From the IMG/VR virus record IMGVR_UViG_3300021437_000095, positions 1-21,660 of that record: a DNA stretch of 21,660 nt. The stretch is one strand, 5' to 3'. The notes beneath the pieces were generated by a model. The model was given only the letters and a program-made list of their open reading frames with translations. It did no database searches and was not told the origin of the DNA. This document shows positions 4,219 to 20,152 of the stretch, in pieces. Position 1 is the stretch's first letter; the number at the start of each line of letters is the position of its first letter. Both the position numbers and the translations under genes were made by a program. This DNA comes from a virus.

Positions 4219-4803
4219 ATGAGAGTGTTAGTTGCTTGCGAGTTTTCCGGCACTGTACGGCGTGCGTTTCGAGCGCTTGGACATGATGCCTGGTCATGCG
4301 ACTTGCTGCCAGCAGAGGATCAATCGGAGTTTCATTTTCAACATGATGCCATCCACATTGCCCGTTACATGGGCCCGTGGCAATTGATGGTGGCTCATCC
4401 GCCATGCACTGATTTGGCTGTTAGTGGCGCTAGGCATTTTGCCGCGAAAAAAGCAGACGGCAGGCAAGATGCGGCACTTGCATTCGTTCAGGCGTTGATG
4501 GATGCACCTATACCAAGAATAGCGATAGAGAACCCTATCAGCATCATTTCATCGCGCATCCGCAAGCCGGATCAGATCATCCAGCCTTGGCAGCACGGGC
4601 ATGGGGAAACGAAAAGTACGTGTTTGTGGCTAAAAAACCTGCCGAAGCTGGTGCCGACGAATATTGTTGATGGGCGCGAGGCAAGGATTCACAAGATGTC
4701 GCCCGGCCCCAATCGATGGAAAGAACGCAGCAGGACGTTTGAGGGAATCGCGCAGGCAATGGCGCACCAGTGGGGCGGCGACATCAGGCAGCAAGCCGCC
4801 TAA
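4219..4803 (+). CDS. DNA (cytosine-5) methyltransferase-like protein, short phage form
   Basis: A 194-aa protein. The N-terminus (residues 3-11, VLVACEFSG) matches the glycine-rich AdoMet motif I of C5-methyltransferases. Residues 60-63 are HPPC, the place of the catalytic PC motif IV, with Cys63 as the possible nucleophile. Residues 104-106 are ENP, corresponding to motif VI (ENV in most). Residues 168-174 (KERSRTF) sit where the QRR-type motif VIII would be, and the C-terminal helix (FEGIAQAMAHQWG) resembles the end of the family. It lacks a sizeable target-recognition domain: typical enzymes are 300-400 aa. Such short proteins are widespread in phages. It could methylate phage DNA against restriction or be a non-classical paralogue; the HPPC and ENP variants argue for caution. 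GAGAGGA precedes the start. Confidence 0.7.
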   Translation: MRVLVACEFSGTVRRAFRALGHDAWSCDLLPAEDQSEFHFQHDAIHIARYMGPWQLMVAHPPCTDLAVSGARHFAAKKADGRQDAALAFVQALMDAPIPRIAIENPISIISSRIRKPDQIIQPWQHGHGETKSTCLWLKNLPKLVPTNIVDGREARIHKMSPGPNRWKERSRTFEGIAQAMAHQWGGDIRQQAA

Positions 4804-4871: not shown

Positions 4872-5015
4872 GGGCGGCGCGGCGTGGATAGCGACACGCT
4901 TGCGCGAAGGACTGACTCCGGAACGACCGGATCGCTAGGGGCGTTTAAAAGGACACTGGCCCGTCCTCGCGCCGCTCAACGTCAGAGCAGGTTCAAATCC
5001 TGCCGCCGCCCACCA
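4872..5015 (+). ncRNA. tRNA-like structured RNA with 8-bp acceptor stem and encoded CCA
   Basis: No ORF of note is here, but a cloverleaf-like fold is visible. Acceptor strands 4872-4879 (GGGCGGCG) and 5004-5011 (CGCCGCCC) pair over 8 bp, followed by discriminator A5012 and CCA at 5013-5015. A canonical T arm is 4987-5003 (GCAGG, loop TTCAAAT, CCTGC), stacked directly on the acceptor, giving the 8+5 geometry known from bacterial tRNA-Sec. Two bases after the acceptor comes a D-like arm (4882-4886 GCGTG with 4895-4899 CACGC, 8-nt loop). Instead of an anticodon arm there is a 71-nt domain closed by a 10-bp helix with one bulged A (4902-4912 with 4963-4972) and containing inner hairpins at 4917-4931 and 4939-4962. 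An alternative D-like hairpin (GCTC/GAGC, 4974-4988) competes with the T arm. No anticodon can be assigned, so it is not an ordinary tRNA; it also lacks the tmRNA hallmarks (no GGATTCGAC, no tag frame). Confidence 0.6.
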
Positions 5016-5029
5016 ATGAAAGGATGAAT

Positions 5030-5230
5030 ATGGAATGGCAACCGATTGAGACTGCGCCGAAGGATGGGGGCGCAGTTTTGTTGTGGGTTAACGATGATTA
5101 TGAGTTTGGGTGTTTTAACCGTGGGTGGCACATTTTCAACAATGGTTATTACACCGACGGTGGGTATGGGCGCAACTATCCCTGTAATCCATCCCACTGG
5201 ATGCCGCTTCCCCCACCGCCGAAAGGATGA
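5030..5230 (+). CDS. DUF551-like small phage protein
   Basis: A 66-aa protein with the family opening EWQPIETAPKDGGAVLLW and the closing segment PSHWMPLPPPPKG. DUF551 proteins are very common in phages; no biochemical function is established. The ATG at 5030 is preferred over the one at 5024 because the AAAGGA ribosome site (5018-5023) is then six bases away. The gene begins 15 nt after the CCA of the tRNA-like RNA, so its ribosome site lies immediately downstream of that structure, and both are probably on one transcript. Confidence 0.7.
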   Translation: MEWQPIETAPKDGGAVLLWVNDDYEFGCFNRGWHIFNNGYYTDGGYGRNYPCNPSHWMPLPPPPKG

Positions 5231-5232
5231 TG

Positions 5233-5460
5233 ATGAAAGACGATGACGTTTTGGAACGCCCCGAATTTGATGCGATGGCGAAGAAAATCTTTGGTTTGGT
5301 CAAGGGGACTATGGCTTATGGATGGGTGGAATATGCCTACCAAGCCGGACGCCGTGCCGGTGCGATGGACATGCGGGAGAGGGCGGCGTTGGAAGCGGAA
5401 GATTGCGATTATGTGCATCACGCAGCAGAGCAAATCCGCGCCCTGCCGGTGGAGGAATGA
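5233..5460 (+). CDS. Small phage protein of the AGRRAGAM.MRERAA type
   Basis: A 75-aa protein with a helical core (WVEYAYQAGRRAGAMDMRER) and the ending QIRALPVEE, a pattern often seen in small phage proteins of unknown role. Three successive ATGs (5227, 5230, 5233) are possible starts; 5233 lies six bases from the AAAGG site at 5222-5226 and is preferred, while 5227 would overlap the previous stop. It is the last plus-strand gene before the convergent junction. Confidence 0.6.
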   Translation: MKDDDVLERPEFDAMAKKIFGLVKGTMAYGWVEYAYQAGRRAGAMDMRERAALEAEDCDYVHHAAEQIRALPVEE

Positions 5461-5481
5461 CAATCGCGGCTATGTCCTAAC

Positions 5482-5537
5482 TCGCCACATATCGCGCATT
5501 AAGCCCGTAACGCTAGGCTATACGTCATATGTGGCGA
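5482..5537. repeat. 11-bp inverted repeat at the convergent junction
   Basis: Perfect inverted arms TCGCCACATAT (5482-5492) and ATATGTGGCGA (5527-5537) flank a 34-nt spacer that itself contains a small AGCC/GGCT pairing. The right arm touches the 3' end of the minus-strand tRNA. Lying between two operons that run towards each other, it could form a stem that slows polymerase from either side or protects RNA 3' ends. There is no T-run after either arm, so it is not a textbook intrinsic terminator. Confidence 0.6.
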
Positions 5538-5605
5538 ACGCCAGCGGGAGTCGAACCCGCATTCAACCGGATGACCGGGAGTCTTACCAGTTAGATGATG
5601 GCGTT
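5537..5605 (-). tRNA. Aberrant tRNA with a 4-nt anticodon loop (no assignable anticodon)
   Basis: On the minus strand a 69-nt cloverleaf is clear. Acceptor AACGCCA pairs with TGGCGTT over 7 bp; the D arm carries the invariant A14, G18-G19 and A21; the T arm is GCGGG with loop TTCGACT and CCCGC, with a normal 5-nt variable region before it. The anticodon arm reads CCGG-TCAT-CCGG: four pairs with a loop of only four bases, exactly three fewer than the standard seven. CCA is not encoded (the next bases are CGCC). Loop bases TCAT could be read as U33 plus a CAT anticodon, but positions 37-38 would then be paired. The first base overlaps the stop codon of the 47-aa gene upstream, so processing from the late transcript would cut within that stop. 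It may be a degraded tRNA or an RNA with a non-translational role. Confidence 0.75.
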
Positions 5606-5747
5606 AGTTGAGCGCAAGCAATAGCCCGAGATTGGCAATGGCATAGCCTGCAAACATGATGCAATGTCCAACGTCACCGCGCCGCCCGAGGTCAATGGCG
5701 GTGCCTATGTAGGCCAGCGTTACGAAGATGACAAGCCAAGTACTCAT
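5604..5747 (-). CDS. Small membrane protein, two helices
   Basis: A 47-aa protein starting at the ATG at 5747, which overlaps the HNH stop (ATGA). It has two hydrophobic helices (about residues 2-17, TWLVIFVTLAYIGTAI, and 29-46, CIMFAGYAIANLGLLLAL) joined by a basic DLGRRGDVG turn. Small phage proteins with an AGYAIAN.GL.LAL ending are common in late regions; role unknown. A longer frame from 5834 exists but would lie within the HNH gene. Confidence 0.6.
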   Translation of the reverse strand: MSTWLVIFVTLAYIGTAIDLGRRGDVGHCIMFAGYAIANLGLLLALN

Positions 5748-6406
5748 GGCATATCTGGCCAGCGATGGCAATTCTTCCTGAGGTTTTCTTTCTCTGGAAG
5801 AATCTGCAAATTGGCCTCCCAATGCAAACCACATACTATTTTTCCGTTTAGCGGAACTATGTGATCAACGTGAATTTGTTCTCCCGCATCGCGCATTTCT
5901 TTTGCCCGCTTGTAAATTTCTTTGATTGCCATTTCGTTAGCCCATTGCGGGGTTGCGTCTTGCAACCTTGCCGCCCTAGTCTGCGTATAGAACGCCAACA
6001 AATATTTGTGATCGGCTTTCCACGCTTTGATTCTGGCATTACAAGCGTCCCGATTCCGGGCGCGATAAGCAGCTTCAGCCGCCAGAGTTTTATCTGGATT
6101 TAACTTGCGCCACCGCGCTTTTCTAGCGTTCTGCTCATCCTTTGTCCGTGTTGCATACTCTTTGCACTGCTCTAGGATTTGCTCTCGGTTCTCAATGTAA
6201 TGCTGTCGGTTGTAATTTAGATACCGCTCTCGGTTATCCTCGCGCCAAACTTTGGTCCGCGTCTTGTACCGCTCCTTGTTGCGCAAATAATGCGCTTTCA
6301 CATAAGCGGCTTGACATGGCTTGCAATAACTTCCGGGCTTGCCATGTTTCTTAGGAAAAGAATCAAACGGCTTGATTTGTTTGCACGCAGGGCATAGTTT
6401 TTCCAT
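5744..6406 (-). CDS. HNH endonuclease with N-terminal zinc ribbon
   Basis: A 220-aa protein. The N-terminus has two CxxC knuckles (Cys5/Cys8 and Cys28/Cys31), a probable zinc ribbon, followed by a long basic region of repeated YN/RNRE-like units (residues 40-140) that probably binds DNA. The C-terminus holds the HNH motif VDHIVPLNG (Asp181-His182) with the N-rich closing part LHWEANLQILPEKENLRK. This is the usual layout of stand-alone phage HNH nucleases, some of which home into intergenic sites. It lies in the distal accessory block of the late operon. The ribosome site upstream of the ATG at 6406 is weak. Confidence 0.85.
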   Translation of the reverse strand: MEKLCPACKQIKPFDSFPKKHGKPGSYCKPCQAAYVKAHYLRNKERYKTRTKVWREDNRERYLNYNRQHYIENREQILEQCKEYATRTKDEQNARKARWRKLNPDKTLAAEAAYRARNRDACNARIKAWKADHKYLLAFYTQTRAARLQDATPQWANEMAIKEIYKRAKEMRDAGEQIHVDHIVPLNGKIVCGLHWEANLQILPEKENLRKNCHRWPDMP

Positions 6407-10113: not shown

Positions 10114-11704
10114 GTACCGGCGCAACTCTCTGCGCTATTCGCGGTATGTTTTCCAGCGCGTTACCCAGTGCAGGGTTTGTTTGGCCGAGCATCGAGTTTC
10201 GGAGCGCGTTGCTGTTTAGCAGCATGTTCGTTCCACGCCCTAAAGCCGCGCCAGCAGCCAATCCAGGCATTCCGCCTAATCCAAACGTGATAGCGCCGGT
10301 GGCAGCACGCTGCGCCGCCCCATGCTGCCCCTCCCGAGGCTTCAAGAAATCTGCGGCAATGTCGGCAAGTTCCTGCATGTCCTTGTTGCCGATGTTTTTC
10401 ATGTTGGCAATGCGGGCAATTGATATGTCGCCTTCCGATCCATTCTTTGCCAACTTGTCTAGCCTGAGCATGTTCCCGTATTGTTCGCGGGTCTTGGCGA
10501 ATGCTTTGGCAGCATCTTCACCCAAGGAACGGTCAAGCGCGTCCATCAACTTGCCTTTGAGTTGCCGCGCGTAATAGGCTTCGCTGGAATTGTTCTTGCC
10601 CATCGCATCAAGACGCTTTTTGATGTTGTAAGCAAGTTGTCCGTCTATATCGCCAGATTCAGCCGCTTTGATGATGTCATCAACTTTGTTGGTAATTATC
10701 TTGGCAAGGTCGGGCGGCAATTCGGAATGCGCAAGATTGGAGACTTCCGCAAGGTCTTGCGTCAACTTGGCATCTGGGCGAATGCTGTTGTTTTTAAGCA
10801 CGCGCTCAAACTCATTTCCGAGCGCATCGTCTGCATTGCGCAGAGCCTTTGTGACGTTTGTAGAGTCTTGCCCAAACGTAGTTGTGAGCGCACGGTTTAA
10901 CTGATTCTGCATCTTAGTATCCGTGGCGGCGCGGCCACTTCCGGGCACATACTCCAACGCAGATGCAATGGCGTTTAACGGCTTGCTATCAACAATGCGG
11001 TCTGCCGGGATATCGATCCCCCATTTGCTTTTGGCAAGGTCAGCAAGCCCCGCGCGTTCCGCCGATACGCCGCCGCCGCGCAAAGCATTCCCCGCCGCTT
11101 GAGCTCCCGCACCAACGGCTTTATCCACCACTGGAATAGCGCCGCCAATCACCGCGCCCGTTCCCGCATCATTGGGGTTAACAAGCCCCGCAGAAGCCCC
11201 GCCAAGCGCTGCGCCGCCTCCTACCCTTAATGCCATATCACCGGCACGTCCGAGTGCCGTAGTAGCCGCAGGAGCACCAAGGCTCAACCCGCCCGACGAA
11301 AGCGCGTTGATACCCTTTGCCACTGCCGGTAACGCTTGCGCCGCCGCAGGTAGCACGGCACGCGCCCCGTTAGCCAACGCGCCACCGGCACCGGCAGTCC
11401 CGGCAATCTCTGCGCCAATCTTGCCGCCTTGGTACATGAGCGAATCAGGCTGCGCACCCATTGACTGCAACCCGGAATCCATCTGCGCGCGCCGGTCATC
11501 GCGGCCAATGAAATCGTTTTGCACGCCCATTGCACGCGCCGCAGCGTCTACCGGAGTAAGCAGGGTCGCGCCGATTGAACCAGCACCACGGACAGCACCC
11601 GCCGCCAGGTTGCCGAGTCCTTGCATGAACCCGCTTTTTTCTTCAACGACAGGCGCAGATTCCCAAGCGCCGCCTTTTACCACCGGGGCGTCTTGCCATC
11701 CCAT
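10100..11704 (-). CDS. Ejection/DNA-transfer-type virion protein
   Basis: A 534-aa protein rich in Gly/Ala (residues about 25-210) with hydrophobic stretches (GAEIAGTAGAGGALANGA, GGGAALGGASAGLV, GAITFGLGGMPGLAAGAALG) suited to crossing or lining a membrane, and a helical charged middle (DDALGNEFERVLKNNSIRPD, KKRLDAMGKNNSSEAYYARQ). The N-terminus carries two short copies of W(Q/E)(D/S)APVV. Composition and position after the tail factors match the ejected internal proteins of P22-like and BPP-1-like podoviruses (equivalent to gp16/gp20/gp7 roles, not necessarily homologous). ATG at 11704 overlaps the upstream stop (TAATG). Confidence 0.65.
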   Translation of the reverse strand: MGWQDAPVVKGGAWESAPVVEEKSGFMQGLGNLAAGAVRGAGSIGATLLTPVDAAARAMGVQNDFIGRDDRRAQMDSGLQSMGAQPDSLMYQGGKIGAEIAGTAGAGGALANGARAVLPAAAQALPAVAKGINALSSGGLSLGAPAATTALGRAGDMALRVGGGAALGGASAGLVNPNDAGTGAVIGGAIPVVDKAVGAGAQAAGNALRGGGVSAERAGLADLAKSKWGIDIPADRIVDSKPLNAIASALEYVPGSGRAATDTKMQNQLNRALTTTFGQDSTNVTKALRNADDALGNEFERVLKNNSIRPDAKLTQDLAEVSNLAHSELPPDLAKIITNKVDDIIKAAESGDIDGQLAYNIKKRLDAMGKNNSSEAYYARQLKGKLMDALDRSLGEDAAKAFAKTREQYGNMLRLDKLAKNGSEGDISIARIANMKNIGNKDMQELADIAADFLKPREGQHGAAQRAATGAITFGLGGMPGLAAGAALGRGTNMLLNSNALRNSMLGQTNPALGNALENIPRIAQRVAPVLSAQ

Positions 11705-18970: not shown

Positions 18971-20152
18971 TTAGTTGCTCAACAGGCGGCAAGCCAGTTG
19001 CGGACGGATGGTCTTGTAGCCGTACAACACATCCAAACGAGTCGGGAAACGGTCGTTATTGATGTCGTACTGGCGCACAATCCGCATGGAAATGCCGTCC
19101 TGCACTTCGCGTGCGGCGAAGTCGACGCCTTGCGGCATCACGAGGTCAGCGGTAGCGAACGTGAACGCTTCCGGGTGGAACACCATCGAAGGTTTGTAGA
19201 CGCCAGAGGCGCTACCGATCTTCGTTACCGCACCGGTGTCAGTCGGGGAAGCCGACACGTTCTGCGTTGCGCCCGAGGTCACGATTGCCGGCGAAACGTT
19301 CAGCGTGGTGCCGCCGGCGGTAACCGCCGACGTCACGACAAACTGCTGAGCAACGCCGGTAGAAACCTTCGTTTCCGGGTGAACGCGGTTAACGCCCGCA
19401 AGGGTAACCACATCGCCAACAGCGAACGTCTTGGACGAACCGTTCGCAATGGTGATGGCCGAGCCGGTTTGCGATGCGCCGTTGATGGTGCAGTTGCTCG
19501 CGTCCGTGCCCGTGGTGCTGTTCGCAATCAGGGTGTTTTCGTAGAAATCAAACCCTGCGGTGCGCCCCATCATGCCCTCTTTGTACTGCTTCTGAATGGC
19601 TGCGGAGTCTTGGAACAGACCCTTCAACGCATCGATCAGGTCCACGTTATCCTGCGTGTTCAGCAGGGCAACGCGATCCGACATCGGCGCGAGGTTGTCA
19701 TTCAGAACCTTGCGACCGGTGAGCAGCTTGTTCATCGTCAGGGCCGAGCCGGTGTTGTTCACGACGTTGTAAACGTCATTCATCATCGACAAAGCGTCCG
19801 ATTCGATGTTCGCCGCCAGGACGGACATGGCCGGATCAAGGATGCGCTTGGCGAAATCGTCCAAGGACATCGTGAGGTCAACGCTGGTGAAGTTCAGGTC
19901 AACGCCCTTTTGGGTCGAAACCGTCAAGGTCGTGCTGGTCTCAGCGGTGTCTTGCGCCGACAGGGCCGCGCCAGTGCGCACGCTGTACTGATTCGGCAGG
20001 CGAATTTTCAGCGAGGTGCCGATTTTCGCGCCGGTCTTGGCGAACGAATCGTCGTACTCACGATAGACGTTGCCAACGAAGTTGAGTTTCTGGTGCAGGA
20101 TGCGCAAGGCTTCCCGCGTGACCGCAGTTGGGGTCAGAATGCTATTTGCCAT
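18971..20152 (-). CDS. Major capsid protein, P22 coat-like
   Basis: A 393-aa protein of the P22 coat family (HK97 fold with an insertion domain). The N-terminal arm and E-loop region (TPTAVTREALRILHQKLNFV, REYDDSFAKTGAKIGTSLKI, RLPNQYSVRTGAALSAQDTA) are clear, as is the P-domain part (LDPAMSVLAANIESDALSMM). Residues about 215-310 form a beta-rich insertion (TFAVGDVVTLAGVNRVHPET) corresponding to the telokin-like I-domain of P22 coat. The end (YDINNDRFPTRLDVLYGYKT, IRPQLACRLL) closes the family pattern. Slightly shorter than P22's 430 aa. An AAGGA site precedes the ATG, and a hairpin with a GGGA loop lies 23 nt upstream. Confidence 0.92.
   Translation of the reverse strand: MANSILTPTAVTREALRILHQKLNFVGNVYREYDDSFAKTGAKIGTSLKIRLPNQYSVRTGAALSAQDTAETSTTLTVSTQKGVDLNFTSVDLTMSLDDFAKRILDPAMSVLAANIESDALSMMNDVYNVVNNTGSALTMNKLLTGRKVLNDNLAPMSDRVALLNTQDNVDLIDALKGLFQDSAAIQKQYKEGMMGRTAGFDFYENTLIANSTTGTDASNCTINGASQTGSAITIANGSSKTFAVGDVVTLAGVNRVHPETKVSTGVAQQFVVTSAVTAGGTTLNVSPAIVTSGATQNVSASPTDTGAVTKIGSASGVYKPSMVFHPEAFTFATADLVMPQGVDFAAREVQDGISMRIVRQYDINNDRFPTRLDVLYGYKTIRPQLACRLLSN

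Follow-up and report, generated by a model that had tools for sequence, protein, structure and literature searches.

A possible tRNA-derived, non-decoding and oversized tRNA-like gene in an early operon of a P22-like phage

In the phage DNA analyzed here, positions 4872 to 5015 specify a 144-nt element in which a tRNA acceptor stem, T arm and CCA end enclose a large domain at the place of the anticodon arm. On the evidence presented below, the chances are about even that this element is a tRNA-derived, oversized tRNA-like gene that does not decode. The window, meaning the whole stretch analyzed, is the 21,660-base fragment of IMG/VR record IMGVR_UViG_3300021437_000095, and it comes from a P22-like podovirus to which no named phage is closely related. 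Small early genes occupy the plus strand to about position 5460. The structural genes lie on the minus strand, among them those for a scaffolding protein, a DNA-stabilization protein and, at 18971-20152, a P22-type coat protein. The element is intergenic within the plus-strand early operon, between the methyltransferase stop at 4803 and the DUF551 start at 5024, and no promoter was called for it. A 47-codon GTG frame across the element, without a relative, was rejected as a coding alternative. The features of this locus are as follows.

4219..4803, plus strand: upstream neighbor, phage DNA cytosine methyltransferase (phrog_757)
4872..4879, plus strand: 5ʹ strand of the acceptor stem, GGGCGGCG, fully complementary to 5004-5011; pairing at probabilities of 0.70-0.999
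4882..4899, plus strand: D-like arm GCGTG-GATAGCGA-CACGC, 5 bp with an 8-nt loop lacking GG, found by inspection; pair probability ~0.91
4902..4972, plus strand: 71-nt domain replacing the anticodon arm, closed by a 10-bp helix with a bulged A4907
4974..4988, plus strand: possible variable-arm hairpin GCTC-AACGTCA-GAGC; pair probability ~0.5
4987..5003, plus strand: canonical T arm GCAGG-TTCAAAT-CCTGC; 23-nt identity with an annotated tRNA of Agrobacterium phage Rivra
5004..5015, plus strand: acceptor 3ʹ strand CGCCGCCC (5004-5011), discriminator A and encoded CCA, from sequence and fold
5024..5230, plus strand: downstream neighbor, DUF551 protein (Pfam PF04448)
5536..5605, minus strand: second tRNA-like gene; Rfam tRNA score 36.5 bits, missed by ARAGORN

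An earlier note, made from the sequence alone, had described the acceptor stem, T arm, D-like arm and 10-bp domain-closing helix of the element, and all of these pairings were found where it placed them; its account of an 8+5 acceptor/T stack plus a big domain in the anticodon-arm place is a correct description. The D-like stem (4882-4886/4895-4899) starts two bases 3ʹ of the acceptor strand, and the helix that closes the large domain is composed of GCGCG/CGCGC (4902-4906/4968-4972) and AGGAC/GTCCT (4908-4912/4963-4967). The 71-nt domain can also be read as a 5-bp anticodon stem, GCGCG/CGCGC, bearing a 61-nt loop where 7 nt would be usual; a type II tRNA split, with this 5-bp stem, the 61-nt loop and a 14-nt variable region, fits the element. 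The minimum free energy (MFE) is -65.9 kcal/mol with or without a tRNA-like constraint, and the acceptor stem, D-like arm and domain-closing helix have high pair probabilities in the fold. The GCTC/GAGC hairpin competes with the T stem, leaving the outer T-stem pairs at a probability of ~0.5 and the T arm overall at 0.5-0.9.

The pairing of the element beats chance moderately. The whole fold has a z score of -2.77, and two of 200 shuffles were equally good. When the T arm and the 3ʹ strand of the acceptor were held fixed, a perfect 8-bp acceptor partner occurred at a frequency of 2.0% in shuffles and 2.8% in native stretches, and the combination of this partner with a D stem of at least five pairs occurred in 0.08% and 0.28%, respectively. 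The 8-mer GGGCGGCG is common in the window (10 copies counting both strands, one of them 99 nt upstream). The 10-bp helix, counted as Watson-Crick pairs in register, arose in 0.2% of shuffles, but it is not significant when GU pairs and any register are allowed (16%). When the interior was shuffled and the ends were retained, the MFE was unexceptional (25%).

The tRNA-like character of the element is supported by its score in a covariance model that allows for an insert, built from three RNAs with an insert in the anticodon region. In this model, 4872-5011 scored 32.9 bits, within the range of genuine phage tRNAs, and the second tRNA-like gene at 5536-5605 scored 23.9 bits. The element also has a 23-nt match to real tRNAs, located in its T arm and 3ʹ acceptor strand. 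Among the canonical features of elongator tRNAs, the T arm with a TTCRA loop, the acceptor stem and the CCA are present, and U8 (position 8 is C), the D-loop GG, U33 and a 7-nt anticodon loop are missing. ARAGORN gave no match at the element whether or not introns were allowed. The check proposed earlier, for a tRNA or tmRNA match in Rfam, was run and returned none for the element; in particular, no RF00005 (tRNA) match covers 4872-5015. As no closure of the anticodon loop yields U33, and as U8 and the D-loop GG are absent, the element is a tRNA body unable to decode.

Excision of the insert does not restore a decoding loop, as no splice choice yields U33 or a purine at position 37 with the observed stem. 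This result bears on the possibility that the element is an intron-bearing tRNA that is spliced to a working form, as in Lak megaphages, whose tRNAs contain unclassified "enigmatic" introns (Devoto et al. 2019, PMC6784885). Like those genes, the element is a phage tRNA gene enlarged by an unclassified insert, and a 342-kb phage discussed below has an oversized tRNA with a canonical D arm and CCA. However, the Lak tRNAs are reported to be otherwise ordinary and their inserts conserved in sequence, whereas the loop of the element cannot be restored and no relative of it was found. A group I intron was rejected (no group I match in Rfam; insert of ~54 nt), and the window holds no RtcB ligase gene. 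Splicing to a working tRNA is thus a very improbable account of the element.

The earlier note had also argued against two known classes of RNA, and rightly so in both cases. Bacterial tRNA-Sec and allo-tRNAs have 8/5, 8/4 or 9/3 acceptor branches (PMC7609411) and share with the element an 8-bp acceptor, a 5-bp T stem and a possible long variable arm. Unlike tRNA-Sec, the element has no anticodon loop and no UCA anticodon, its D arm is 5/8 rather than 6/4, and its best score for RF01852, 15.8 bits against a cut-off of 47, falls in another register (4939-5011). A 77-nt tRNA in the register suggested by this weak match (4939-5015) was rejected for three poor acceptor positions and a poor fold. 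The element resembles tmRNA in having tRNA-like ends and a larger domain replacing the anticodon arm, but it is 144 nt long, its third acceptor pair is G-C rather than G3:U70, a D-like stem is present, and neither ARAGORN nor Rfam reported a tmRNA match.

The position of the element behind the methyltransferase gene suggests where it may have come from. In other phages, homologous methyltransferases (56-70% amino acid identity) are followed directly by a tRNA-Leu, tRNA-Ser or tRNA-Ile gene: a canonical tRNA-Leu(CAA) in L172, L176, L177 and L179 (methyltransferase 69-70% identical), tRNA-Ser in L175 and L178, and tRNA-Ile in L171. In L180, L183 and L184, a degenerate sequence bearing a T arm lies within ~200 nt 3ʹ of the methyltransferase. 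These degenerate tRNA ends sit in short repeats of the AAGGACGC type, and the contigs of L180 and L183 encode tyrosine integrases. The neighborhood of the element is in keeping with an origin from a phage tRNA gene because the same methyltransferase precedes tRNA genes in these phages. Moreover, when the insert-free element was aligned with 111 tRNAs, the tRNA-Leu(CAA) of L172 was third best overall and the best among tRNAs not chosen by T-arm match, as the two better-aligned tRNAs and one tied with it had been fetched for that match. By these comparisons, the source was probably a type II (Leu/Ser-like) tRNA carried behind the methyltransferase gene. Eight acceptor pairs rather than seven are not expected from simple decay of tRNA-Leu.

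The DUF551 gene of the same operon has a conserved end to which the last bases of the element (CCCACCA...GAAAGGATGA) are similar, and this counts against a tRNA-derived reading. The direct repeat CCCACC...GAAAGGATGA occurs at 5009-5035 and 5212-5238, at two gene junctions, and the small genes of the operon have in common a conserved end and ribosome-binding site, a likely point of recombination.

A related alternative is that only the 3ʹ end of a tRNA was captured, for example as the core of an attachment site or a relic of recombination, and that its pairing with the 5ʹ half is fortuitous. This is evident as a concern from the distribution of tRNA likeness, which peaks in the last 29 nt, and from the 5ʹ half, which lacks the tRNA consensus (U8 and D-loop GG). 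The acceptor partner is found by chance in 2-3% of cases, and the same 8-mer lies just upstream. Near 2551 on the reverse strand of L188, a T arm belongs to a tRNA-Val(CAC)-like 3ʹ half with an encoded CCA and no tRNA 5ʹ half, a probable attachment site in a contig with a tyrosine integrase. Against such an origin, no tyrosine integrase is encoded in the window or in a 31.6-kb relative, the stretch before the T stem is unlike the half of a tRNA anticodon stem, and the acceptor and D stem together are expected at only 0.1-0.3%. Additionally, the exact 25-nt 3ʹ end occurs in 0 of 84,980 genomes, among which the genome of the host itself may not be included. Capture of a 3ʹ end is considered rather unlikely; together with the retained decoy discussed below, it is a main competitor of the tRNA-derived reading.

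Searches for relatives of the element by sequence returned none, in collections from which records very close to the window may have been withheld. The exact 3ʹ end is absent from viral contigs, and gapped patterns anchored in the acceptor stem, in T arms behind the methyltransferase end or in T arms ahead of the DUF551 start yielded no relative among 2.9 million viral contigs, with the element itself matched as the positive control. The acceptor-anchored pattern likewise found no relative of the phage element in genomes. Matches by blastn to phages and plasmids lay solely in ordinary tRNAs, at their T arm and the 3ʹ strand of their acceptor, and a single-sequence covariance model run on 100 loci recovered ordinary tRNAs at most. 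In L164, the nearest relative among phages (63% amino acid identity in the stabilization protein), the DUF551 gene is present without the element ahead of it. The suggestion of an undescribed phage RNA class is therefore unsupported insofar as it is built on the sequence of the element, since scans of viral and bacterial collections by 3ʹ end, acceptor and neighboring genes gave no relative. What stands of the class claim is a broader grouping by architecture, whose members have no common sequence.

This grouping is seen in a scan for perfect T arms whose 3ʹ neighbor pairs perfectly with a partner 76-260 nt upstream, with ordinary tRNAs left out and permuted 3ʹ ends as the control. In 20 further phage stretches, most of them tRNA-rich, five of 16 non-canonical T arms had a 7-bp partner, against 0.7 expected and none in 500 permutations. 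When samples were pooled without the window, an 8-bp partner was found for 8 of 41 (0.8 expected), a count that includes two of the Thermomicrobiales RNAs described below. The sample was not blind, as several of the scanned stretches came from records picked out for oversized candidates. Oversized tRNA-likes thus recur in unrelated phages above chance, and they have architecture, but not sequence, in common. The following are among them.

Starts 11545, minus strand, L173: 139-nt tRNA-like from a 173-kb phage; CCA present, D arm canonical, acceptor of 7 bp
10393-10507 (G018:70392-70506), minus strand, L210: 115-nt tRNA with canonical D arm, T arm and CCA; Rfam score 53 bits
6793-7020, L166 (the L053 contig): 155-nt oversized tRNA-like without CCA, with a 70-nt tRNA immediately after it

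The phage of L173 has 25 ARAGORN tRNAs in 12 kb. The L210 tRNA, from the 342-kb phage, carries ~42 extra nt in its anticodon loop. In L166, the 70-nt tRNA has a 4-bp anticodon stem, and large and small forms are adjacent as in the P22-like phage; a resemblance of the L053 element to 4872-5015 failed as homology. L186 has a 132-nt oversized form with an 8+5 stack and no CCA. In L200 and L217 (G009), a tRNA-Leu-like gene of ~117 nt has ~27-36 extra nt in the anticodon loop and is called by ARAGORN only if introns are allowed; another tRNA of the G009 phage was assigned a 4-nt anticodon. Apparent giants in L070 and L161-L163 were discarded as ordinary tRNAs or a tRNA 3ʹ end.

Chance matches of the acceptor pattern in genomes led to a separate set of RNAs in Thermomicrobiales, which are tRNA bodies with a conserved insert beside a TROVE gene. 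Their loci are as follows.

5122-5841, minus strand, L204 (G029:C25, a Thermomicrobiales MAG): Thermomicrobiales RNA locus
229-360, L230: Thermomicrobiales RNA locus
1480-1752, L232: Thermomicrobiales RNA locus

One of these tRNA bodies is Leu-GAG-like and one Asn-GTT-like, with inserts of 55-60 nt in or near the anticodon arm that have in common the sequence CCTTGCCC...GGGCCGAyGG...GAGGGTTATCG. The RNAs lie close to TROVE/Ro60 genes in three genomes, and a YrlA match, though weak (E 0.004), extends across the boundary between two tandem copies. They look like Y RNAs in an unpermuted tRNA form, and they are possibly of greater interest than the phage element.

That the element might itself be a Y RNA of the Ro60 type, in which a Ro-binding module replaces the anticodon arm of a tRNA body, is suggested by the same architecture and similar insert size in these three genomes. 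A tRNA-like domain is part of YrlA-type Y RNAs (PMC7790460), and Ro60-related proteins can be phage-borne (PMC7765460). YrlA/Y RNAs (RF02553) are, like the element, non-decoding, with tRNA acceptor, D and T arms and a foreign helix for the anticodon arm. However, YrlA is circularly permuted, has a closed acceptor in the Rfam model and carries a Ro60-binding module, whereas the element lacks the motif tested. The Thermomicrobiales motif (CCGAYGG...GGGTTAYCG, 3ʹ strand) is absent from the window, in which the sole CGAAGG is on the 5ʹ strand. RF02553 does not match the element, and no TROVE gene is found in the part of the genome covered by the 21.7-kb window or in its relative G001. Because the motif is absent and the window has no TROVE gene, the element is not filed as a Y RNA, an identity that would be most surprising.

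The second tRNA-like gene of the window, at the end of the late operon, has a 7-bp acceptor (AACGCCA/TGGCGTT), a good T arm and a shrunken anticodon arm, CCGG-TCAT-CCGG. It is directly adjoined by an 18-nt inverted repeat (5482-5499/5520-5537). Both tRNA-likes of the window thus combine wrecked anticodon arms with intact acceptor stems and T arms, a pattern consistent with retention as decoys: bodies without a cleavable anticodon that occupy or evade tRNA-cutting defenses of the host, or tRNA-processing enzymes. Some phage tRNAs are predicted to escape anticodon nucleases through changes in the anticodon loop (PMC10264068), and competitive inhibition of such a nuclease has been proposed for a tRNA-like Y RNA (PMC7790460). 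The former, like the element, are tRNA bodies with altered anticodon loops, but theirs are point changes that leave an anticodon assigned, whereas the element is unable to decode. Moreover, one would expect the recognized loop to be retained in a decoy aimed at an anticodon nuclease, the element is not conserved in other phages, and it has no known defense target. A retained decoy is therefore judged unlikely, and the earlier proposal of a sponge for tRNA-cutting host defenses is possible but unsupported, and the mimic role offered with it is unproven.

If the element is a tRNA-derived gene that does not decode, the ~54 extra nt would now lie inside the anticodon loop of a phage tRNA gene. It would be transcribed along with the early operon, its 5ʹ end would be cut by RNase P and its CCA end matured, processing to be expected of an intact acceptor stem, T arm and CCA. 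Such a gene would yield a stable, end-processed RNA unable to decode. Its use, if any, would likeliest be as a bystander or decoy for enzymes that recognize the acceptor/T half, and otherwise it may be a by-product of the rapid turnover of phage tRNA genes. A more speculative and unlikely idea is that phages unrelated to one another have repeatedly turned tRNA genes into RNAs that do not decode, with a structured domain put in place of the anticodon loop while the acceptor, the T arm and, in many cases, the CCA are retained. The element would then be one of these and would work on the tRNA-processing machinery as an adaptor or a decoy, a parallel to the Ro60 Y RNAs.

Standard tRNA finders discard or miss genes of this kind, and the descriptor used here, a T arm with a perfect distant acceptor partner and a permutation control, allows them to be counted. 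If oversized non-decoding tRNA bodies are truly transcribed, phages hold a hidden set of tRNA mimics, which would bear on why phages carry tRNA genes and how tRNA-cutting defenses are met.
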